Positions 10,317 through 42,650 of a stretch of DNA of 64,000 nucleotides are shown here, piece after piece. The DNA is from Cyathus striatus (lineage: Eukaryota; Basidiomycota; Agaricomycetes; Agaricales; Nidulariaceae). The stretch lies in assembly GCA_025738555.1 (NCBI GenBank), contig JAOVFP010000004.1:1674001-1738000 (forward strand), in the 5' to 3' direction. Numbering within the stretch: position 1 is the first letter of the stretch; each line of letters begins with the position of its first letter. Under the pieces are notes generated by a model that was not told the origin of the DNA, did not search any database, and saw only the letters and a program-made list of their open reading frames with translations. Position numbers and translations under genes: made by a program.

Positions 10317-12568
10317 TTATACGATAGATGGCGGAAGAGAAGATTCAATCGGACACAGTTGATCCCATTGGACTGCAAGCCGTCAATGTATAGCCGAAGC
10401 AAAATGATTAAACACTTACCAGTAGGAGTGCTAGCGGTGGGGATATCTTGTGTGTCTTCTGCAAAAATAACAGCTAAACCGCTGAGTAGAAGTTGTAAGT
10501 TAAAAGTAGTCCTTATGGCGTGACCAAGAAAATGGACTTACCCGGCCAAGTGCCAATCAATGTGACTGATAAGAACATGTCAAGCACTTTGAATGTAACA
10601 CTAGTCATAGTACTTACCAGTGGAATATCCATGGGCCAGGATTGTTGGTATTGAAACGTACAGTTGTTTCACTTCCCAGGAATCCTATTTGTGTAGTATC
10701 CCTTCGAACTGGATCTTTATAATTTGTCGTGTTACTCCCTGCGCTTCGAATGACACTGAATGAATGCTATCAATAGAAAATTAGCTGACTAGTAAAGAAT
10801 TCTAGAATAACTAGCTTACTCCGTGAAGGTGCATTGGATGCTAAAAGAAGTTGGTTTCAATAGGGGTGGATTTGACTTTAATAATATGAACTCACAGGTG
10901 AATCCGGACTTGAACCTCCTCCTGGAATAACTAATTCAATTACTTTATTTCTTGGCAAGTAGTAAATAGATCCTTTGGGAAGGAGTTCCTCCGGTTTTTT
11001 GGCATGACTGAGCATTTGAAGGAGGACAGGAACAGAGGGAGCGAAGTACGTTTGGTTGTTCACAGTCCATAGTGATCCGTTGCGGCCAATCTGCAAGTTG
11101 ATCTTGACATCAGCTTCTCCGTTCGCATTAGCAGGAGCTGCGGGATTGACAAGGGCATGAAGCTCTGTTTCATTAAATATTTTGGGTGACTTTACTACGA
11201 TATCACCGTTCGTTGGTTCTGCATTGCGGGCGCCTTTGTATCGAAAGACAGCAGAATTGACGCCGTTAGCTGTAGTGCTCGATAATCCGCCCAACCCTGA
11301 GTTGGGGATTGCGCGGATCCAATAATTGTCGACGGGCTGGTTGGCTTCCACAACAATAGAATAGCGTTGACCTTTTTCAGGTTAGACAAATACTGTAGTG
11401 GATAATATGACCCATGTCTTACCAGCGAATATCTGCAACTTGTCAACAGTGTAAGGCTGGGCACTTTCGCCGTCAGCTTCAATTATTGTCAACTTGTGCC
11501 CCGAGATCGAAAATAGGTGATTAGGGTCGCAGGAAATAGACAACAAGCGGAATCGGTATCTCTTTCCCCTTTCGACATTGATGACAGCTAGATCAACCGA
11601 CGGTCCACCGATGTATCGTCCTAGTCCGTTAATAAGCGTTGATGACGCCTTTCCAACACCAGTTCCTGGAGTCCGACTCGATGTATGATACCTAAAGTCT
11701 ATTTTAAGAATAGACTGGACATTAGATTGATTTCCTACGCACCATTCCCCTAAAGTGATAACAGTTGACGCTACAAAAAATGATCAGATGAGAATGTCAA
11801 ACAGCAGCACAGGTTCACAAACCATCGTCCACTGACATAAATTATATCAGTATTAGAATGTATTAATAATTAAACTGTGACATACCATCGTAGAGATTCT
11901 TGTTAGGATCATTGGGATCGTAGATGACTACCGGGCCACGAAGGCCGTCGCAGTATTGAGTGCCTTGAGTGAAGGTGGTTGTAACAGAAATATCGATATT
12001 ACAAATCAGTACATACCATAGTGCGAGTGATACCAGAAAGTTCCTGCCTGACTCAAGGCTTTGAAGTCATACAAAAAGGAGTGACCTGGAGCAATAGGAC
12101 ATTGGCTGACGCCGGCTACTCCGTCATCCCAAAATGATCCTTGTTGAAACATCCCATGCCAATGCTATGACAGTACTTTAAAAAGAGGAAAGTGGGGAAG
12201 TGGAGCAAACACGCACAACTGTTGTCAAACGAAACATGTTGGGATCAGTCAAATTATTGACCACATTCACCATGAATCGGTCTCCCTGTGACACCTGTGA
12301 ACATCAATTGCGACGGGTATGATTAATTTGAATTCACAATGTTTCCTGTTAACAAAGGTCCTGGATGAGATCCGGAAACCACTGTTGCTCTTTAGAAATG
12401 TGTAAGTCAAAGCTTATACGTAACACATGTTGTTAGAACTTACGATCTCTTGAATCCATCAGGCTGCACAACCTGACTGGAGATTTCGAGAGTGCGCCGC
12501 ACAGTAGCTGCCTCCGTTGAGGCTACTGCGAACCCAACTATGACTGCTGAAATTAATGGGAAGCGCAT
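10317..12568 (-). CDS. Laccase 1 (multicopper oxidase AA1_1)
   Basis: Fourteen exons in transcript order: 12568-12444, 12389-12338, 12294-12217, 12164-12017, 11963-11886, 11831-11823, 11770-11743, 11691-11423, 11371-10896, 10840-10820, 10766-10618, 10565-10542, 10481-10420, 10372-10317 (1575 nt, 524 aa). The signal peptide is about 20 residues. All four laccase copper signatures are present: [29 protein letters not shown] and HCHIDWHL. The axial position ten residues after the T1 Cys is Leu, as in medium-potential laccases. The terminus [16 protein letters not shown] is typical. The secreted enzyme oxidises phenols and reduces O2 to water in lignin or humus turnover. Exon sizes of 52, 148, 78, 9, 28, 476, 21, 24 and 62 nt recur in laccase 2, so the two are paralogues with conserved intron positions. 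Confidence 0.95.
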
Positions 12569-20556: not shown

Positions 20557-21880
20557 ATGGATAACTTGTTCCAGTGGAAGTTTGCTACCGACGTGAGTTG
20601 TGCATTCGAATTAGACTCAGACCCATCAACATCAACATTGACTTACAGCATGATGACTTCCGCAGACGTTTTCGCTATCGATTGCAACTTGTGTTTCTCT
20701 ACCAATAGAAGTTCAACCTTTCAACGCAACCAATACGACCGGCTCTTACGGTGTTCCGCCGTATTATATGCACGCATTCGCCATTGACGGAACGCCGACG
20801 ACAACGTTAGTAGGAACTGACAACAAAACGTTGAATTGGACGCCCAATCACCCTCCGGGTAACTACTCTCTGCCTATTATCGTCTTTGATCTATACTGAA
20901 CTAAGTATAGGAACTCAACTATTACTTACATTGGTGGATTCAGCTGGGACTTCTGGCGGGGTTAGTCCAAGTTTATACACAGTAATTGGTGCGTCAATCT
21001 CGCATCGCTCATGAAAAGTTACTAAACAGCTAGTGATTACAGCTGGACAGAGCACACAATGTGTAATCACAGATGACACGAACGATTTCACGACCTCTGC
21101 TAATAACACAGACGAGCTTACCACCTGCCAACCATGGAGTCTGAAGATAAAAGGAGGTGTTCCTCCTTACAATATTATCTTAGCAGCGCTCGATTCACCT
21201 TTTGTAACCAATGTCACCGTTCCATTCGGAGAAGATCTCTTCGTCTACATCAATCGTGCAGATCCTGGAACACAACTTGCAGGTTCGTAAATGACTTTCA
21301 ACTGCATCGACCGGAAATCTAATTGATTACTCTATAAATCAACAGCTGGAATAAGTGATAGGTTCGTGACTTATGTGTTTAAACTGTTGTTATTCTAAGG
21401 TAAATACAGCACGGGGAGATGGGCGAAAGGTACACCTCTGGTGAAGACGAAAGGTACGTTCTGGACACTGTTCATCAAATTTACATGTTAAATACTCGTT
21501 TACCTGCAGGTTCTGCCGACGTTTCATGTACTGGGCTTAACAGCTTCAGCGCCAACTCCACAGCCCTAGCCGCACAGCAACAGGGATCAAATTCAAGGTC
21601 TAACAATAAAATAGCAATCATAGCCGTGCCTATCGTCGTTCTTATTATCGCTGGGGTTGTATATTTCCAGTGGCACAGACGCCGTCGAGAACGTCAGTAT
21701 CAGCTCGTAGAAGAACTTCGACCTCGACGGTTTGAAGATGTCAAATACGATGAGCCAATATTGTCACCAGGAATTCGCCAGGTGCCTAATGATAGTGATA
21801 ACGTAAATGATGGGGTCGTGGTACGGCATCGCGATGGGGGGTCTATTCGTACGTTGCCGCCGCCTTATGCAGAACCTTGA
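20557..21880 (+). CDS. Single-pass membrane protein with PPPY tail, copy 1
   Basis: Exons: 20557-20592, 20666-20858, 20911-20988, 21043-21282, 21346-21361, 21410-21453, 21510-21880 (978 nt, 325 aa). The extracellular part has conserved FQWKF, NTTGSYGVPPYYM, TDNKTLNW, STQC, TTCQPW and NRADPGTQL, with many N-glycosylation sequons. It is followed by a Ser/Asn-rich stalk, a transmembrane helix (IAIIAVPIVVLIIAGVVYFQW), a basic HRRRRERQ stop-transfer and a short cytosolic tail ending HRDGGSIRTLPPPYAEP. PPPY is a WW-domain or Rsp5 ligase ligand. Exons 2-6 have exactly the same lengths as in the copy at 30.8 kb (193, 78, 240, 16, 44). The start is doubtful: the first ATG gives no signal peptide, although the paralogue has one. 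Function is unknown. Confidence 0.75.
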
Positions 21881-22101: not shown

Positions 22102-24139
22102 CTAGTCTCCATAAGGCTTCGGATAATGACCAATGTTGCTCTCTTCCACCTTGTTCCTAACAGGAACGTAGTGAGGGTTGAGAGTCCTGGCTTCGGATGA
22201 GGTTCCCCGGCGTATACACTGCAAAATACCGAGTGCGATGAGAATTAAGCCTATGACAACATTAGCTGCTAGCAGCCCAATAATTGCTGGTCCGTAACTG
22301 GCTACTAGATTGGAGTCTGAGCTAGAGGATTCTGCGAGCCTTGTCTCGTCCTTGTTATCAACACTGACATCGCTGGCGCTGTCACCAGAATCGCTATCCG
22401 TTAGTATTAACTTCACCAATTGCAGCGGGGAAAGTTCGGGGTCCGTATAATTCTTCAACGCGTTTTGTCGACTAGAAGCATAGTCAGAGGTAGCCTTCGA
22501 CATATCTGTTTTTGCAAGGAGCTGTATGTATGCGTCCCCAATGCTTCCATCCGGCAATGTATCGCCGAAGTCGTATCTATATATATGTGTAAGAGAGTGA
22601 TATAACCACGTAGAATATTTCATATAACTCACAGGCTGTAAACATTCCGTAAGAATGTATCTCCGAGTGCGATATCAAACTCGCTCGTAGCGATAGTACC
22701 ATCCGTCACAAAAGAAGAGGTACAATATGTGTAATCTTTCCCATTTACTGTGATCACGTTTATATCTGTCAAGTCCAATGGATGGATTGGAATCGTTTGG
22801 CCCCTTAAAAATCATTCATGTAAGGCTTTACTTAAAACGATACATTATCCAACCTTACCCAAAGTTAAATGTTAGCTTGGGAAGTGAGTCTGAGGTGCAA
22901 GGCACGACCCATTTCCCCAGTGCTTGATATTTCGCTGCATCTTTAATGCCTGAATAGATGGCATCGAGTATATCGTCCGGAACACTCCCGGAAGGATTTC
23001 CGGTATCCAACAAAGCGACACCTTTTCCCTTTGGTACGCCTTTCACGCCAGAAGACACATGAATCGATTTGCCGTCGACTTCTATATCATCGAATATCGT
23101 GGACCAACGGTATCCAACTGGTGGCGGAGGATATTTTGGTAACTTGGGAGTCTGCTCAACTGCGGTATAATCTGGATCGTACTCTCCGATGGTGAAAGAC
23201 CCATCCCCGCTGCTCTCGAGGTCATCGGATCGAGAAAGGTCGAAAGCGACAAAGTTGGGCTGATGAGGGTTTTGTGTAAATATATTATTTAACACTGAAG
23301 CACCCCATGTAGCAGATGGATTTGATTGCTGGGTAGCATTGATTATAGGAGACCCAATTGCCTGATCGAACCCTAGGCCTAACAGTCCGTTGAGCCCTAA
23401 CTCCTCTATTCCACTTATAGTGACCTGTAGAAATTGTTTTAGTTCTAGACAAGCCCAGTGCCCTTCTATCTTGAATTAAACTCACGTTTGAAGCGTTCAA
23501 GAATGCTATATGTCACGTTTACAGCTGATAGTAGTACTAAGAATTTTAACGGTTAACATACCTTGAGCACCAATTTTATATGGTCCGATTTCTACGGGTG
23601 CTACCCCTATCGTTCCGTTAACTCCGTAAGATCCATCACCGTAAAGTAAACTAAGTGGTATCTTCGAGTCGTTGAATTTGCCAATTCCGTCGGGTGCCTG
23701 AACCCTTTGTAATGCATTATAACTCTACGTATAGTGAAGAGGGAAATTTCAAACGAACCATAAATCTGTACTTCCTGTATCAAGGGCAACGTAAAGCTCT
23801 TTATCGAGAATGTGTTAATGATTGATGGACTATATTGATAGTAGATAAAATACGCACCAACCCCGTTTACAGTGATATTAGTAGCGTACTGCCAAATGAG
23901 AGATAGATGTAAATAGTTGTCATCGAGCTAGGAACCGAATGTAAGACACTCACTCTGATGTTCTGAATGTCTAGAAGATCTCCCTTCGTACTACCCGCCG
24001 AGTTAGCATTAAGCTGAGCAACTTTAAGCTTTTTCACGGGACTCCTTGCCGCATGAAGGTTGATGGCAGTTGCACTAGACACCGTAGAGGAGGCGATGAT
24101 CCCAAGACACAATGTAAATGGATATAGAACCATCTTCAT
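22102..24139 (-). pseudogene. Membrane-anchored A1 aspartic protease, copy A, frame interrupted
   Basis: Exons in transcript order: 24139-23954, 23888-23858, 23798-23562, 23505-23486, 23424-22859, 22803-22633, 22576-22102 (1686 nt, 562 codons). The N-terminal signal peptide, first catalytic motif VALDTGSTDLWF, flap LLYGDGSYGVNG and second motif ALLDTGNPSGS are present. A Ser/Asp-rich stalk, one transmembrane helix (IIGLLAANVVIGLILIALGI) and a short tail follow. Directly after DLWF two in-frame stops, TGA at 23749-23751 and TAG at 23725-23727, lie inside a 30-nt stretch that starts with GT and ends with AG. Either the gene is dead or this is an extraordinarily short intron; its absence leaves the frame open (DLWF-SYNALQRVQ). 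Copy B has coding sequence at that place. An intact version would be a cell-surface peptidase resembling fungal yapsin-type enzymes in topology. Confidence 0.8.
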
Positions 24140-24932: not shown

Positions 24933-26975
24933 CTACTCTCCGTAAGGCTTTTGATAGTGTTCATAGCTTCCCGCCTCGCCTGTGCTATTACTTACGGCGG
25001 TATACTTAGGAGGTCTAATAGTCCTAGCTTCGGATGAACCTCCGCGACGCGAAAGTTGTACGACTCGGACAGTAAGCAAGATGATTACTACGCTGAGGAT
25101 AGCAATCACAATTATCAACCTAATAACTGTGGCTCGACAAGATTCCGACTTCCTCGAAGAGTTTATCACCCGGATACTTGCGTCGTCACTGTCTTCTGCA
25201 CTGGAATCACTGGAAGTATCATCGGTGTCACTGGCTGATATAAATTTCAATAATTTCAGCGGAGCGGTTTCAGGATCTGTATAATCCTTCAGCGTTTTTT
25301 TTCGACTTGAAGAGAAGTCAGCGGTAGCTTTCGATATATCTGTTTTTGCAAGCAATTGTATGTATAAATTTCCAATGCTGCCATCCGGTAATGTGTCACC
25401 AGAGTCATATCTAGGAATATTTGTAAGACATCAGTACGTCCGTAGAGCAGGATAGTAACTTCTTACAAGCTGTAAACATTACGCAAGAATGTGTCTCCAA
25501 GGACAATATCATATTGACCGGCATTGGCGTTTAGAGAACCATCCGCTAAAAATGTGGAAGTGCAAACGGTGTAATTTCTCCCATTAGCTGTGGCAACAGA
25601 TATGTCCGTCAAGCCCAGAGGATGGATTGGAATTATATTCCCCCTGTAACCCATTCCAGTAAGTCATTTACATAAAATGGATCGCACATCAAGACATCAT
25701 TCTTACCCGAAGTTAAATGTCAGCTTGGGAAGTGAGTTTGGCGTGCACGATACAATCCACGACCCCTCATCGTCTCCAGATTTCACCGCTCCTTTAATAC
25801 CAGAATATATAGCATCGAGGATTTTGCTCGGGAGACTTCCAGTCGGATTTCCGGTGTCCAATAAAGCAACAATTTTTCCCTTTGGCGCACCCTTCACGGC
25901 AGAAGACACACTGACTGACTTGCCATCAATCTGAATATCGTCTACTAACGTAGACCAACGGAATCCAGCTGGTGGAGGAGGAAATCTAGGTAACTTGGGG
26001 GACTTCTCTATAGCAATATAATCTGGGTCATATTCTCCAATTGTGAAAGGCCGATCCCCACTGCTTTCGAGATCTTCGGAACGAGAAAGATCAAATGCGA
26101 TAAAATTAGGTTGATGAGGGTTTTGGGTAAAAGTATTATTGAGCACCGATACACCCCATCCAGCCGATGGACCATATACGTTCTGGATACTATTGATTAT
26201 GACAGAGTCTTGTGTCAGGTCGAACCCTTAACAATCCATAAAGCCCTAATTCTTCTATTCCTCCAATTGTAACCTGTTAGAAATTATTTTTAGATACGTC
26301 ACAGGTCAGCCCATGATTTTATTTCAACTTACACTCGTAGTGTTTAGAAATGCTGTATGGTTTTATGACTATGAAGTATAGCTGATTTTCGTAAGGATTT
26401 CTTTTATGCACGTACCTCGTTCGATTGTACACGATCCGATTTGCATGGGAGCTATGCCAATTGTCCCATTAACGCCAACTGAGCCATCTGCATAAAGTAT
26501 GCCCGTCTTTATCTTGGTGTCGTTGAAATTGCCAATTCCACCAGGAGGTTGAACCCTCTTAAAAGCATTAATGCGAATCCTCGAAGGAGCGAGGCAATTA
26601 TCAACAAACCATAGATCTGTACTTCCCGTATCAAGGGCAACCGGGATATCTAACAAAGGGTTGTTCGTAGGTATTTCACCGTATAATTTGCCAATGTATA
26701 ACTACTCACCCACTCCGTTTACTTTTATATTGATAGCATACCAAACGAGTAAAGAAGTTAGCCACACATGCGCCGTGAAAAGAAAGAACAATACTCGCTC
26801 TTATGTTCTTGATATTTGAAAGATCGCCTTCACCACTTAACTTAGTGTTGAGTTGGGTGGCTTTCAGCTTGTTCACATTGTTTTTTCTGGGCAAAACGTC
26901 GTCAGCAGCCGACAACGTTGATGAGGCGAGGAGACTAAGGCATAAAAGAAGCTGGGAACAATTAGATGACTTCAT
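24933..26975 (-). pseudogene. Membrane-anchored A1 aspartic protease, copy B, multiply disrupted
   Basis: Homologous exons in transcript order: 26975-26799, 26740-26710, 26649-26416, 26352-26333, 26273-25707, 25643-25467, 25410-24933. Catalytic motifs VALDTGSTDLWFV and ALLDTGNPTGS and the flap ILYADGSVGVNG survive, as does the C-terminal helix (IRLIIVIAILSVVIILLTVRV). Lesions seen by comparison with copy A are three. The intron 1 donor is GCGAGT instead of GTGAGT. The intron 1 acceptor AG is missing before TATGCT. A 5-nt deletion in exon 5 near 26229, where A has TTAGGCCTAGGG and B has TTAAGGG, shifts the frame into a stop within about 12 codons. The rest of the exons stays open, so inactivation looks recent. 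It lies head-to-tail with copy A, consistent with tandem duplication. Confidence 0.8.
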
Positions 26976-30755: not shown

Positions 30756-32405
30756 ATGCCAGAGAGAGCTCTGTTTGTCTCATGCCTTCACTCTGCAGTT
30801 GCATTCCTGCTCCTTGCGGCCCCTACCTTCGCACAAACTCACAGCATCTTCCAGTGGAAGTTTTCAAGCGACGTGAGTGGTTGCATTTGCGTTCCCTCTT
30901 TGCTTGGCTTACAAGCTTTTTTCGTAGACACTTTCGAATTCGCTGGCAACCTGTGTTTTTCTCCCCATAACAGTTCAACCATTCAATGTTACGAACACGA
31001 CAGGCTCTAGTGGGGTGCCTCCGTACTATATGATGGCGTTTGCGATAGGAGGAACACCAATAACGACTTTGATTGGAACGGATAACAAAACGCTGAACTG
31101 GCAACCTACTCATGCACCAGGTACGTTAATCAATTTTCTCAAGCCCCCAGCCTGTATCAATCAAGACACCAGGGACGAATTTGTTGTTGAGTGTGGTTGA
31201 TTCTACGATGAGTGCTGGTGGGATACCTCCAAGGTTGTACACGGTGATTGGTACGTCCCTTTCAATTTACCTCTTGAGTGACATTTCACATTATCACAGC
31301 CGGCCAAAGCACGCAATGCGTAGTAAACGACGACACGAACGATTTCACAGTTTCTTCGAATGTCACAGGTGACATTACTACATGTCAGCCTTGGGGCTTA
31401 CGCATCAAGGGCGGATCCCCGCCCTATAACGTCACTTTCGCTGCAATCAACTCTCCGATTGTTACCAACGTTACCATGCCCTTCGGAGACGATGCGTTCA
31501 CGTATATAGATCGAGCGGATCCTGGCACACAATTGATAGGTTTGTTAATTACCTTTTCGTGGGGTGGTGCTTGTAAACTGACAACTTTTTGTTGCTATGA
31601 ATAGCTGGTATCAGCGACTTGTAAGCATCTCCTGCATTTTCCGCATTTTGCGAGTTGCTAATCTGAAACATATAGGACAGGACGCTGGGCGAAAGGGACA
31701 CCACTCGTGAACACCAAAGGTACGTAACTCTGAGCGCTGGGTGTAAGCGAAATGACTTATGGGTCCGCAGGGTCCGCAAACGTCGACTGTATAGGCCTGG
31801 TCAGTTCCAGCGGCAACGCAACTGACTTGGACAGGCAGAGCAGCAGTTCTGGCACAAACAAAACAGCGATCATAGCTGGGGTCGTAGTGCCAGTCGTGGT
31901 CCTGCTTATACTTGGAGCGGCGTTTGCCTGGTGGCTCCGCCGCCGGCGAGAACGCCAGCGCTTACTTATCGAACCTGATGTTCTTCCACGGCAATTTGAA
32001 GAAACTGGCGGACAGGTGTTGTCGATTACAAATTTCTCTAACTCTTCCCCTCCGCCGAGCAGCAAGGCTCTGGTGTTCAACGATACGCCATACGCTAGCA
32101 ATGGGCCTGTGCGATCTGCTTCCGCGTCCTCTGCAGCTGTGAGCTCGACTTATTATTCCTCCACTGCGTCACCACCAGATGAACGTGGTCTGGAACCTAA
32201 TCGGCGCCCTAACTCAGCCGGTCGTCCAGGATTTGCAGCATTCCCGTCTGCACCTGTTCGTCGGACCGGAAAAGCGGTCGAGGCTGGATCAGCTGATGCG
32301 GATGAGGAAGTTGTGATACAGCATCGTGACGGGGGCGCTGCACCTGTACGTGAACTGCCACCTCCATATGCCGACCGCAATGCATCCGGACCAAGTACAT
32401 CTTGA
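30756..32405 (+). CDS. Single-pass membrane protein with PPPY tail, copy 2
   Basis: Exons: 30756-30872, 30928-31120, 31173-31250, 31300-31539, 31605-31620, 31676-31719, 31771-32405 (1323 nt, 440 aa). A clear signal peptide (VAFLLLAAPTFAQ) precedes FQWKF. The ectodomain repeats the motifs of copy 1, including GVPPYYM, TDNKTLNW, GQSTQC, TTCQPW and DRADPGTQL, and has many Asn-X-Ser/Thr sites. The helix (IIAGVVVPVVVLLILGAAFAW) is followed by WLRRRRERQR and a cytosolic tail of about 165 residues, much longer than in copy 1 and rich in Ser, Pro and Ala. The tail ends in HRDGG...LPPPYADR, so the HRDGG and PPPY motifs are conserved while the middle is not. It is probably a plasma-membrane or wall-sensing glycoprotein regulated by WW-domain proteins; this is inference. 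Confidence 0.85.
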
Positions 32406-36337: not shown

Positions 36338-36346
36338 TATAAAAAG
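36338..36346 (+). promoter_or_regulatory. TATA box of the repeat-peptide gene
   Basis: TATAAAAAG lies 55 nt upstream of the first ATG at 36393. That spacing allows a short 5' leader and fits a gene that can be strongly transcribed. Confidence 0.6.
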
Positions 36347-36392: not shown

Positions 36393-36868
36393 ATGCTAAC
36401 CATGCGTTACACCGGGTTTCTTGTACTCTTCACAATAGTCACCTCATGCAAATCGTTTCCACTTGTAAGTTCTCCATACACATACAGACGACTCCCAACT
36501 CACATATTTTATGCAGCCAGAAATCAATAGAAGGGAAATTTCCTCAATTGAGGTGAGTGAACAAAGAGAGGGAGCCAGAAACGATAACGTTTTAAGCATT
36601 TTTTATGTAGGCTGATCGCGTCCTGTTGGATCGTGAAGACAGTTCTTTAGCTGCACCACCATGGAAAAGAGATCATGACGCTTCGGCTGCTCCACCATGG
36701 AAAAGATATGTCGGGGATTGGAAGAGAGACACAGAGGCTACGGCCGCTCCGCCTTGGAAAAGGGATACCGACTCTTTGGCAGCCCCACCATGGAAGAGGG
36801 ATACAGATGCTTCGGCAGCCCCACCTTGGAGAAGAGATACAAAGACATCAGCTGCTCCGCCATGGTAG
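36393..36868 (+). CDS. Kex2-processed repeat-peptide precursor (AAPPW repeats)
   Basis: Exons: 36393-36464, 36517-36552, 36611-36868 (366 nt, 121 aa). Exon 1 is a signal peptide (YTGFLVLFTIVTSC; ATG at 36402 is an alternative start). Exon 2 carries one RR site (residues 29-30). Exon 3 holds six AAPPW units ending at residues 54, 66, 85, 97, 109 and 121. The first five are followed by KR or RR, and the sixth by the stop codon. Between units lie acidic spacers such as DTDAS, DTEAT and DHDAS, and one extra unit YVGDW-KR (69-75). This is the layout of fungal Kex2-processed repeat proteins: Kex2 would cut after KR, Kex1 would trim the basic residues, and about 10-residue peptides ending in APPW would be secreted. 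The natural end at Trp121 supports that product. Function (signal, pheromone-like, RiPP core) is unknown. Confidence 0.85.
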
Positions 36869-37508: not shown

Positions 37509-39726
37509 TTACGTAGTAAACACATAAGTAACGCTGCGATTTCCATTCTTCTCTCTATTCACAAGTTCTTCCACCTTCTCTTCCTCATTTAAAGAGCTGA
37601 AACGGGTCTTATTTTGCCTATTTTTGAACCTGTAGAATAGCTTTTGGGAAAACCACAGTAAGAAGGCGACTGCAGCGAATATGATGTTTATTGTATTGCC
37701 ACGGCGGAAATCTGACAAGAAATCGTAAGGCTAGTAACAAAGACAGCTAGTTCGAACATACCTGGGGAATCATCGGCCCTATATATCTAGGGTTTATTTT
37801 CAGATTGGATATCATATCGCTCACAAAAACAATTATATAGTACATACTTGAGATCCCCACACTCCATATATGTTTGCTATGACATGTCAGAAGTTAGACA
37901 ATATTACGGTGACACCATAAATTTAGAATGTTGAAAGATATACTCACCAAATCCAATAATAAGTCCCGACGAAACTGTCCGTTTTCCGACGCTCCTAATA
38001 CTTGTAATTAGAGAAGCAGCATGATAAGACTTTGAATTGCATTTTGTTACCCTGTGTTCTCAGACATCCATGCAATGTTCAGAGGATGGGTATACGGCCA
38101 TGATGCGACCACAATTGCAGCAAAATATTTAACCCCTTTTGCTGTTCCCATTGGAAGTGCTCTTAATAGAATCCATCCCACTAGTTGCCAACAAGCTTTT
38201 AAAAATTTTGAGCCTTATTCATTGATCGCAAAATGAGAGACGGACCACCAAATGCACCATGTAAACCTCTCTCCTTAGTCCTATCCGAATGGTGTATCAC
38301 CAGGACCGTTACAATGCATTGTAAAACATATGGCGGCGCAGTTAACGCGTTGGATACAAATACATTGAAGTTGAATGATTTAATAACCGTAGGAAGATCT
38401 GGAGAAATCGTCAGTTATAGTGATGGTGTAATGCAAACGGAAATCTAACATGTGCCCAAAGGCGTCGTTGGAGTGAGCCCGATGGTAGTCAGTATAAGGT
38501 GGCCCCAAATTCCGACATCTTTAAGTGTTTCCTTGATATCATTCCATGTTACACGTTGTCTGTAAGATCAGACAAGTGCTATCTCCGAAAACAATACAGA
38601 AACTTACTCGTAAATGCGTTTTGAAATGTCATCGCGAACGACCCTGGTTACAGCGATGCATACCTGTTTATCATTGAACCAAGGCTTCAACCCTCTGATG
38701 CCTCCACTTGTGCTCGTGAGGTTTAAGGGCAAGTAGAACCTGAAATCTAATTAGTTACCATTTTTTGATGACTCTAACTGATATATTATACCAAGTTGCG
38801 ATAGCAACTACTAAAGTAATAATTCCATCAACAATAAAAAGCCATTTCCATCCTTCTAGGCCCGCTACACCTTTGAGTTGTAGCAGGCCACTTGCCATGA
38901 GGCCACTGACAGCACTTGCAATAGTTTGTACACCCCAGAACCATGCGAGACGTGTAGCTAGCTCGGTACCTTTATAGAACCCTCCAAGATAAACGAGGGT
39001 AGCCGGTATGACTCCTTTTGGGAAGTTAGTGATCCAACAGTACTCTTTTCATCTTTATACACTCACCTCCTTCCGTTATTGCAATAACTCGATGAGTTTC
39101 AGTCTACCATGAAGAGAGATAATATCACTTGGGCACTTACAACATCTAACTGTTGATAAGCAACGTGAGATCATCGTCCACTTTCAATTTCCAAGCGTAA
39201 GCACTAACCTGTAAGATATCCCGCCTTGTTCTTTATCAAAGCGTGCGCCATTGTCACTAATCCCCATGAAAACATCAAAGTTGGAATCCCTTTGGGTGCA
39301 ACGAGCTAAGCACAATAAATAATGATTACAACTTGATTAGAACGTACAACGCGAAGGACCCGCAATCTTTGCTATAATGGCCCCAGAAAGGCAGAATATA
39401 GAGAAAAGGAGCGAGTATATTGCTGTCGCAGTGTTGACCACATTTATATTGAAGCCCAGATCCTCTGGAAGGTTGTCCGATATAGCGTTGGATATGTTGG
39501 TTCGGTCCATGTTAAGGACGAACGTCGTCAACAAGATCCATGTAAATAACCTCTTGTCAAGAATCCTGATCACTTGCGACTCCTCTACATCCGTGTATTC
39601 AAGGTCTTCAACAAAATATGGGTTGTCTGTGTCTGGATGATACGAATCCTCTAGTTCCTCTCTAGGCTCAAAACCAGAAACTGTGGCTACTTGCGAGTTG
39701 GAATCTTTCTCGGTGTTGGAAAGCAT
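37509..39726 (-). CDS. MFS transporter, anion:cation symporter (Dal5/allantoate permease-like)
   Basis: Thirteen exons in transcript order: 39726-39348, 39289-39209, 39149-39141, 39087-39067, 39014-38792, 38739-38608, 38559-38450, 38398-38267, 38195-38051, 38000-37948, 37876-37848, 37786-37762, 37711-37509 (1542 nt, 513 aa). The cytosolic N terminus (about 65 residues) precedes TM1 (LFTWILLTTFVLNMDRTNISNA), the ACS-family hallmark. Other family motifs include GFYKGTELATRLAWFWGVQT, IAVTRVVRDD, GTYLPTVIKSF, IYRADDSPDFRRGN and a final NGNRSVTYVF tail. Twelve helices are expected at the plasma membrane, importing small organic anions, amides, vitamins or peptides. The gene is intact and converges on the repeat-peptide gene. 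Export or reuptake of that peptide is possible but not shown. Confidence 0.9.
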
Positions 39727-40130
39727 TGTTAGGTCTGCATGCGGTGAGCGCTCCTATCGCAGAGAAGTATGTATGTATAAAATAACCCAAGGAACGCTCT
39801 CCGCACTGCGGAAATGGTGCACAAAGAATTCCTAATGGCGCCATACACATGTCATAGTCATAAGCGTCCGTGGGGAGGAGTAGCCTAGCAGGTGCATTGG
39901 AAGCTATATTTAGCTGCGTCAGTGCTGATAAGAACGCTTATTATTCACACATAAAGAAATTCCGAGCAACCATTAAAGTGATAAACTCGAAGGCCATGTG
40001 GCCTCGTTCTTCAAGTTGTCGAAGCCTGAAGACAACAGATCGGTTAATATATTATGAAAACCAGAAAGAATATTAATAGCTATAACTAAAGTACGAAAAT
40101 GTCCATGGTGTATTTAGAGCCGTAGGGAAT
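39727..40130. other. Intergenic, MFS promoter side
   Basis: TTTATACATACATACTTC-like sequence on the minus strand lies 30-50 nt upstream of the MFS ATG. Nothing else was recognised. Confidence 0.4.
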
Positions 40131-40313: not shown

Positions 40314-42650
40314 GGCAGATGATGTCGAGGGCGAGTTTGCACTCGACGATACCGGGCTTGAAGTGACAGGGGAATCCGATGGTAGGTTCAGTGCATCGTA
40401 AATTGGGCATAGCTGCTTCCAAGAGTCTGACGAAGTATTATTAACAATGATTCGGAATCATGTAAAAACAACGTACCTGGAACTGGATTGGCTTGCTTAA
40501 CGTGTGGTTCATCGGCAACAAAAACAATTCCAAGTCCCCTAAGTATATTGGTTAGTAACCCGTGATACGGCTAAGTAAAGCATTTTCTCACCCTTGCAGA
40601 TGGAAGTCAATGTGGCTAGAAAACCATAAAAATTTAATCGTGAAGTGTAAAAGAGAAAGCAAGGTGACACACCAGTGGAATATCCAAGGCCCCGGGTTAT
40701 CCGTTGTGAAACGAATAGTAACTTCACTCCCACTCTTAACTTCGCCAATACTGACAACGTCCCTCCTAACTGGATTGTGGAAGTTGTACGGCGTGTTATT
40801 TCCGGCACTTCGCACAACGCTAAAATAATTCTAGTCACAAGTCAGAACCTGCAAGGAGATATATCGTGGGAAATATCTACCCCATGCAAGTGGAACGGAT
40901 GCTACAACAAAAACAGAAGTTAGAAAATATGTCGCTTATCTAAGAGAATTTGCTTACAGGACCTCCAACAACACCAGCCTCTGGAATCGTGACTTCAATA
41001 ACCTTATTCCGTGGGAGAGTAATGACTGATCCATGAGGTAGCAGGTCTCGCGCATCTTGAGCTCCACTCAGGATCTGCAAAAGTACCGGCACAGACGGAG
41101 ACTCGAACGTTGTCCCGTTCACCGAAAATTTAAAAGAAGTGGCGTTAAATGCTAGCGCAAGATTTATGTTAACATCCGCATGTCCTGGTTTTGGTACTCC
41201 AGGTGCAGCGGGATTCGTAAGCGGGTGAAGATCGGTCTCCTCGAGTAGCTTTCCGGCTTTTATCTTGCTCACGGGGGGTTCACTCTTTGGCGCACCTTTG
41301 TACCGCAGAATCGCCGAGTTGATTCCATGGTCGAACCCATCTGTTAGGTTGTTTTTGCCTGAATTGGGGAGTGACCTTATCCAGTAATTCCCTACAGGTT
41401 GGTTGGCGTTAAGCACGAACGAATAACGTTGTCCTGCAGGCATGGATCACAGAGGAAGTCAGCCACAGATACGGGAGCGAAAAAAAATCTGCAATCTCAC
41501 CCGTGAAGATTTGGATTTGATCTACCGTTACAGGCTCCACATTCTCTCCATCCGCCTCAATAATTGTCAACTGATGTCCATCAATCGAAAACATGTAGTT
41601 TGGATCACAAGCGATTGAAATCAGCCTCATTCGATAACGCTTCCCGCGGATAACGTTGACCACGGCTAGGTCTATTTTTGGTCCACCAGGATATCGGCCT
41701 ATTCCGTTAATGAGGGTAGCATCGTTGGAGGGGATGCCAGAAATTGCGGGCGCAGGTTCATGGAACCTTTAGGACAATGTTAGTATACTCGACTATTAAT
41801 TATAGAGCTACCAGTACCAATCAGCTAACGTGATAATAGTCGCCTCTACCAAAGAACCACGGTTTAATCCATGAGGACCATGTTGGAGCAAGGGAACTCA
41901 CCATCATCAACTATAAATTTCATTAGCTAAGCTTCAGAACACGTTTTATTCATAACTTACCATCATACATATGTTTATAGGGATCATTTGGGTCATAAAT
42001 CACCATGGGGCCTCTCAGTCCATCACAGTATTGCGTTCCTATACGAAGAAGTCAAACACTCCGAAAAGTTCATGAAGTTGAGTGAACATACCAAAATGCG
42101 AATGATACCAAAATGTCCCAGATTGAGCCTGAGGCTTGAAATCATACACGAACGAATGACCGGGTGCGATAGGACATTGCGTTATCCCTGCGGCACCGTC
42201 GGCCCAATTCGAGCCACGTTGGAGAATCCCGTGCCAATGCTACCCGTCCATTAAGTAAGCTAGAAAAGATTGATTTGAAAATACGACATACGATGCTTGT
42301 ACCACGAAGCATGGTGGGATCATCTAGCTGATTGACCACGTTCACTCTGAATCGATCCCCCTGTTTCTCTGTGTTAATCTTTGTCGCTCTTTATGTCAAA
42401 AAGGAAGGGATCTACCTTGTTCGCCTTCATTAGCGGTGCGGGAAATGATCCCTGTGCAACTATTGCTCTACCAAACGAAGTTAGTATTTCGAATTGTAAT
42501 AGAGTTGAAAAGAGCGTACGATCGCTGAAACCCGTCTGGAGCAACGACATCATTCGAGATCACTAAAGAAGAACTAGGGCTAATGCTAGCGCCCCAAGAA
42601 AGCGAGGCGGAAGCGAACAATGCAAGAAACGTGAATGGTGAGGGAAACAT
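40242..42650 (-). CDS. Laccase 2 with Ser/Thr-rich C-terminal extension
   Basis: Fourteen exons in transcript order: 42650-42520, 42467-42416, 42360-42292, 42239-42092, 42038-41961, 41910-41902, 41845-41818, 41766-41501, 41433-40958, 40901-40881, 40830-40673, 40615-40592, 40538-40477, 40426-40242 (1707 nt, 568 aa). A signal peptide ([15 protein letters not shown]) leads. Copper motifs are HWHGIL, WYHSHFGTQYCDG, HPFHLHG and HCHIDFHL. The residue after HLHG is Asn ([14 protein letters not shown]) where laccases nearly always have His; that position is conserved but is not a copper ligand. The axial residue is Leu. After [12 protein letters not shown] the protein continues about 45 residues rich in Ser, Thr and Pro, absent from laccase 1, perhaps a glycosylated or wall-binding tail. 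Activity on phenols is expected from the intact ligands. Confidence 0.92.

Follow-up and report, generated by a model that had tools for sequence, protein, structure and literature searches.

Ascomycete alpha-factor precursors carry repeated cores between Kex2 sites, and the X-Ala or X-Pro dipeptides that follow their dibasic residues are removed by STE13. Dikaritin precursors, such as those of ustiloxin and phomopsin, are also secreted and composed of Kex2-cleaved repeats, and a tyrosine in the core is a feature of the ustiloxin type. Kex2-processed repeat proteins, or KEPs, form an established class (PMC6339444), with 7878 KEPs counted in 1345 of 1461 strains (PMC7329392). Basidiomycete KEPs with a C-terminal tryptophan on their cores were pointed out in 2022, and mass spectrometry detected some of their peptides (Vogt et al. 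2022, PMC9769878). In that study, the peptides QYKAPSW and QMRPPSW were released from the Coprinopsis cinerea KEP 490115 expressed in Pichia, C. cinerea supernatant is likewise cited as evidence for the experimental processing of similar precursors, and SGVAADW is given for oyster mushrooms and SGTGEASAADW for shiitake. GPPAPSW and DDDPEGPPAPSW illustrate that a peptide can occur in a short and a long form side by side, and KEP 490115 and its homologues carry an STE13 motif (X-Ala or X-Pro after the dibasic). No phenotype was detected in six C. cinerea kep knockouts, the synthetic KEP peptides tested had no antibacterial activity, and the authors prefer a role for the peptides in the biotic environment (PMC9769878). 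Basidiomycete mating uses lipopeptides (PMC9769878). Further away stands Qsp1 of Cryptococcus, a secreted basidiomycete 11-mer that also ends in Pro-Trp and whose maturation, by the protease Pqp1, is extracellular (PMC5959073, PMC7537855, PMC6571750).

Here we describe a gene of Cyathus striatus, the AAPPW gene, found in a window of 64,000 nucleotides (the whole stretch of DNA analysed, to which the positions below refer). It is, judging by its sequence, an additional member of the established class of agaricomycete KEPs with Trp-ending cores, and what is particular to it, on the same reading, is its AAPPW core together with the absence of the STE13 motif. We consider it very probable that it encodes a secreted Kex2-processed repeat protein that would release linear peptides ending in tryptophan, likely as an extracellular signal. 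The gene model has three exons on the plus strand of contig C4, starting at 36402 or 36393 and ending at 36868, and the protein of 121 residues (ATG 36393) or 118 residues (ATG 36402) runs from a hydrophobic N-terminus through a short pro-region into the repeat array. The features of the locus, with the exons, introns and units as predicted, are as follows.

36338 to 36343, plus strand: candidate TATA box TATAAA, 64 bases 5′ of ATG 36402, a consensus match only
36393 to 36464, plus strand: exon 1, predicted signal peptide, with the upstream ATG at 36393 and the preferred ATG at 36402 (MRYTGFLVLFTIVTSC...)
36465 to 36516, plus strand: intron 1, GTAAGT...TTTTATGCAG, phase 0, matched by a phase-0 intron at the corresponding place of the C3 paralogue model
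36517 to 36552, plus strand: exon 2, pro-region PEINRREISSIE, containing RR at 36529-36534
36553 to 36610, plus strand: intron 2, GTGAGT...TTTTATGTAG, phase 0, again matched by a phase-0 intron at the corresponding place of the C3 paralogue model
36611 to 36868, plus strand: exon 3, repeat array and TAG stop, from the translation
36650 to 36670, plus strand: unit 1, AAPPW and KR, with no dibasic directly before its spacer
36671 to 36706, plus strand: unit 2, DHDAS-AAPPW and KR, from the translation
36707 to 36727, plus strand: odd unit, YVGDW and KR, likewise Trp-ending, from the translation
36728 to 36763, plus strand: unit 3, DTEAT-AAPPW and KR, from the translation
36764 to 36799, plus strand: unit 4, DTDSL-AAPPW and KR, from the translation
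36800 to 36835, plus strand: unit 5, DTDAS-AAPPW and RR, from the translation
36836 to 36868, plus strand: unit 6, DTKTS-AAPPW and then TAG, whose carboxyl end would require no Kex1 trimming

Splicing was modelled from 92 GT-AG combinations over the two possible starts, selected for an open array frame. Strong donors occur in 4 of the combinations from ATG 36393, and the model chosen among them has the best acceptors by eye. The original prediction had proposed two introns and a signal peptide, and both agree with what we find: the GT-AG pair at 36465-36516 and 36553-36610 joins the hydrophobic N-terminus to the array, and the predicted signal peptide has, by hydropathy, the core GFLVLFTIV (mean Kyte-Doolittle 2.78) and the MR start common to 9 of the 12 database relatives described below. 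This shows that the sequence holds a good splice model, perhaps one of several, that joins the N-terminus to the array. The downstream ATG at 36402, with A at −3 and a protein that starts MR, is likelier than ATG 36393 as the start, because the paralogue described below and those 9 of the 12 relatives also start with MR.

The array reads ...EDSSL-AAPPW-KR-DHDAS-AAPPW-KR-YVGDW-KR-DTEAT-AAPPW-KR-DTDSL-AAPPW-KR-DTDAS-AAPPW-RR-DTKTS-AAPPW-stop, with the six AAPPW copies beginning at 36650, 36686, 36743, 36779, 36815 and 36851. Units 1 to 5 are followed by KR, KR, KR, KR and RR and the sixth by the TAG at 36866-36868, so the sequence is as first described, with dibasics after five AAPPW units, a sixth at the stop and acidic spacers; the seventh Trp-ending piece, YVGDW-KR, was absent from that description. 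A tandem repeat with a period of 36 spans 36719-36841. A degenerate 20-base pattern for AAPPWKR, run over the host genome (107.45 Mb in 24 contigs), had 4 matches, all inside the AAPPW gene, and its reversed control had 0 matches in the whole genome. When the last-exon translation was shuffled by residue 20,000 times, counting PW ends that precede a dibasic or close the chain, none of the shuffles had the 6 observed, and the maximum was 2.

All differences among the six AAPPW copies fall on four third-codon positions. Compared pairwise between copies within the one gene, so that the comparisons are not independent, the core has 38 synonymous differences in 60 synonymous site comparisons (pS 0.63) and 0 in 165 non-synonymous (pN 0), as against 29 of 50 synonymous and 70 of 175 non-synonymous (pN 0.40) in the spacer, taken as the five residues that precede each copy. 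At the DNA level the copies have diverged while the peptide end is unchanged, and this contrast of an invariant core with variable spacers suggests that selection maintains the peptide end rather than the DNA repeat, which would in turn argue for its recognition by something.

One reading that would dispense with released peptides is that of an intact secreted Pro/Trp-rich protein, or one with a wall or matrix role, in which the dibasics are incidental. The Kex2-derived peptides of Ustilago maydis Rep1 do affect the hyphal wall (PMC6339444). However, tryptophan stands directly before 6 of the 7 dibasics of the AAPPW protein and the seventh Trp is its last residue, and the same residue precedes all 12 dibasics of the paralogue and 60 of the 71 found in the relatives (a share inflated by the way the relatives were retrieved), so we hold the intact protein to be very improbable. 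The reading as a KEP that was proposed at the outset finds its repeats, its dibasics and its hydrophobic N-terminus all present.

In the processing that we favour, signal peptidase would act first, a Kex2-type protease would then cut after each KR or RR, and a Kex1-type carboxypeptidase would strip the basic residues. The expected products would be DHDASAAPPW, DTEATAAPPW, DTDSLAAPPW, DTDASAAPPW and DTKTSAAPPW, together with a form of unit 1 and YVGDW; the part recognised would be Pro-Pro-Trp with its free carboxyl end (in most relatives Pro-x-Trp), with the acidic stretch as a spacer. P_proprotein, a domain of Kex2-type proteases, is found at two loci of the genome (C2:1944613 and C5:3948112). 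Four loci, on contigs C11, C17, C4 and C5, match DPPIV_N, a domain that STE13-type peptidases have. None of the six units carries the STE13 motif. Since D-T or D-H, and not X-Ala or X-Pro, follows the dibasic, STE13-type trimming would be blocked or slow, and the decapeptides would therefore dominate, with APPW as the end point should trimming begin.

A variant within this explanation takes the tetrapeptide APPW, and not the decapeptide, as the working product, a tolerant dipeptidyl peptidase removing DT, then DA, then SA, and stopping before Pro-Pro. In each of units 2 to 6, all decapeptides, Ala occupies place 6 and Pro place 8, and AAPPW is the sole constant part. The dipeptide register of these units (x-T/H, x-A/S/T, x-A, A-P, P-W) resembles a ladder with an altered first rung. 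Against this variant, all five units start with DT or DH and may continue with DS or KT, and DT, DH, DS and KT are poor substrates for enzymes specific for X-Ala or X-Pro. Short and long forms do coexist in the published case of GPPAPSW (PMC9769878), and we regard the tetrapeptide as possible, if doubtful.

A search of the genome with the last exon gave one further array, at C3:5130083-5130520, with a best E of 1e-4. It belongs to a three-exon gene, the APNW paralogue, modelled at C3:5130080-5130707 on the minus strand with splice sites placed by eye and encoding MRISAVIIVAATFVGAACAAPA... The paralogue has 13 APNW units, the last one at the stop, and two phase-0 introns at corresponding places, one after the signal peptide and one before the array. 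The reverse search, with the paralogue array against the genome, recovered the AAPPW gene at E 2.8e-9, and a search with the Termitomyces relative described below recovered the AAPPW gene and the paralogue only (E up to 1). Both genes are repetitive and E-values alone are therefore insufficient to settle whether they descend from one ancestor, which the intron plan they have in common favours. In the paralogue, too, the core has pN 0 and pS 0.57 and the spacer pN 0.18. In contrast to the AAPPW gene, X-Ala or X-Pro follows 12 of its 12 dibasics.

A genome-wide pattern of three W-[KR]R units, which requires A-starting K/R codons after the Trp and misses CGN, had 31 forward and 35 reverse matches, as against 6 and 14 in the control. 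Read by eye, the AAPPW locus and the C3 paralogue alone resemble repeat precursors, the remaining matches being mostly simple repeats or other frames. A match at C9:666127, from the paralogue search, lies on the opposite strand of a long Ser/Thr-rich frame and was set aside as no such precursor. The same search also met a separate repeat gene in two near-identical copies (C10:4273844-4274488 and C3:5960006-5960230), with units such as RGNFGREAEVQ and RGNFGRDVEVQ, single arginines between the units and the signal-peptide-like MMFKNIPLAVATLLLLPLIAIVSAAPAP upstream. Each copy lies about 3.3 kb from UstYa matches, and together they make, on their sequence, a secreted-looking and apparently duplicated dikaritin-like cluster. 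Four UstYa matches within 4.4 kb at C3:2564951-2569288 may mark another peptide cluster.

Three protein searches gave 12 distinct database proteins with the same grammar, the 6 named ones all from mushrooms. With the AAPPW protein alone as query, P0001 was found at E 4.5e-9, and P0002 (Volvariella volvacea) at E 0.097, which is not significant. The paralogue as query brought in P0003 (Termitomyces sp. Mi166, 4.6e-22), P0004 (Lyophyllum shimeji, 1.1e-8) and P0005-P0007, and an eight-sequence profile added P0008 (Arthromyces matolae), P0009 (Amanita thiersii), P0010, P0011 (Candolleomyces efflorescens, partial) and P0012 (E 0.013); in the paralogue and profile searches, the sequences scored were the roughly 8,000 candidates with the most words in common. 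A taxonomy check placed three of the six named species in Agaricales, to which the other three also belong. Ten of the relatives were retrieved through the paralogue or the profile, and common descent is therefore less sure than common grammar.

Pro-x-Trp occurs at 65 of the 86 Trp residues that precede KR, RR or the terminus in the 14 proteins, and at 46 of 66 in the 12 relatives, shares that retrieval by words such as APPWK inflates; P0005 and P0010, with the cores FGNNW and YGSNW, lack such an end altogether. Trp is the C-terminal residue in half of the relatives (P0002, P0003, P0004, P0006, P0008 and P0012); the other six end otherwise, and some of these may be partial or mis-annotated. 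The STE13 motif is present in 40 of 60 units of the relatives and in 0 of 5 in P0010. P0003, P0004, P0008 and the paralogue share with the AAPPW protein the MR... N-terminus, the Trp-dibasic units and the terminal unit ending in Trp, but they differ from it in cores such as GAPNW, GPPGW, GAPGW and SPPGW and in many EA/EP-type unit starts (12 of 12 in the paralogue, 8 of 8 in P0003, 3 of 5 in P0004 and 1 of 5 in P0008). No Pfam family passed its curated cut-off on nine of the precursors (the AAPPW protein, the paralogue and P0001-P0007), nor did any NCBIfam model on the AAPPW protein, P0003 and P0004. PF23348 on the paralogue (E 5.5e-6), at 27.1 of the 35 bits of its cut-off, was taken as composition.

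The precursor architecture is identical in kind to that of the dikaritins, and one could suppose a dikaritin-type RiPP in which UstYa-family oxidases cyclise the units ahead of their secretion. UstYa genes exist in the genome (32 exon-level matches to PF11807, DUF3328), and there is a tyrosine in YVGDW. Among the matches listed (E up to 0.001), however, there is no UstYa match in the window or within 1.3 Mb on the contig, nor any within 0.8 Mb of the APNW paralogue, whereas two other repeat genes of the same genome do lie about 3.3 kb from UstYa matches. HxxHC has seven single matches in the six frames of the window and no close pair in one frame, and AAPPW and the spacers have no Tyr, the only one being that in YVGDW. 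The distance to the nearest UstYa match therefore makes a dikaritin extremely improbable, and we reject a UstYa/dikaritin cluster for this gene on the lack of a neighbour among the listed matches and of a close HxxHC pair in the window.

No partner gene is evident beside the AAPPW gene among the 20 of the 109 window ORFs of at least 90 residues that were tested against Pfam. The nearest recognisable ORF is a major-facilitator transporter at 38758-39753 on the opposite strand, in two pieces that are both below the curated cut-off. Other ORF pieces in the window match a multicopper oxidase, an aspartyl protease, an O-methyltransferase and a transporter. The multicopper-oxidase pieces (laccase-like, Cu-oxidase) are at 10881-11381 and 41412-41768, both on the minus strand, and the frames 11385-11783 and 40943-41446 look by eye like more of the same sequence. 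Two similar aspartyl-protease (Asp) pieces on the minus strand, at 22858-23475 and 25706-26227, are probably a tandem pair. The similar plus-strand frames 21015-21287 and 31278-31601 (ITAGQSTQCV..DDTNDFT...TTCQPW) look duplicated, and 31278-31601 had no Pfam match over the cut-off.

The precursor plan also resembles that of alpha-factor, and an alpha-factor-like mating pheromone with a Ste2-type receptor has to be weighed. The paralogue, with X-Ala or X-Pro after every dibasic, speaks for it, and basidiomycete KEPs with that signature are recorded (PMC6339444). The AAPPW gene itself, unlike the ascomycete precursors, has the STE13 motif in none of its units, and the genome has 31 exon-level STE3 matches, as expected with lipopeptide mating pheromones; a search for STE2 (PF02116) gave 0 matches, in the control genomes likewise. 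The alpha-factor-like pheromone is most unlikely, and of the two class comparisons first drawn, the likeness to alpha-pheromone precursors stands for architecture only, while that to dikaritin precursors finds no support, no UstYa match being listed nearby. The further statement that this is not a normal mating factor of the CAAX type holds, as the protein ends in APPW and has no CAAX box, which sets aside a basidiomycete a-type mating pheromone.

The closest described system is that of C. cinerea KEP 490115 and the other Trp-ending KEPs, which share the signal peptide and the short cores separated by dibasics, and whose linear peptides with Pro-x-Trp ends are like the predicted AAPPW products (PMC9769878). 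The AAPPW core, and acidic spacers that do not start with X-Ala or X-Pro, distinguish the present gene in a comparison made by description. PMC9769878 couples the STE13 motif with the Trp end, and the gene therefore agrees with KEPs in the wider sense and with the Trp end but departs from the motif. The exact AAPPW core had no match in the main texts of the papers searched, the string search for AAPPW-type cores matched GAPNW only, in two papers unrelated by title, and a literature search for later work on Trp-ending peptides listed no further paper. The novelty originally claimed thus holds for the core in the main texts searched and not for the class, which was published in 2022 with detected peptides (PMC9769878), and the find is less novel than first thought.

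Expression, processing, secretion and signalling of the AAPPW gene are what we infer for it, and the favoured role of the peptides, a secreted signal to the fungus's own species or to its neighbours, is the most likely one because the free peptide end is so constant. The likeness to Qsp1, which differs in its extracellular maturation, comes down to two end residues and is kept as a lead only. A wider and improbable idea, which we offer as speculation, is that Pro-x-Trp ends form a mushroom-wide signalling alphabet: a receptor or oligopeptide importer common to mushrooms would read the invariant P-x-W, while x and the spacer, STE13-trimmed or not, would make the word of each species or paralogue. 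The quorum-sensing peptide of Cryptococcus, which ends in Pro-Trp, would be a distant functional cousin. If that were true, AAPPW and GAPNW would be two words, on two separate channels, in one genome. Mushrooms have many Kex2-processed peptides without an assigned job, and C. striatus offers two clean test cases in a single genome, AAPPW without the STE13 motif and APNW with it.
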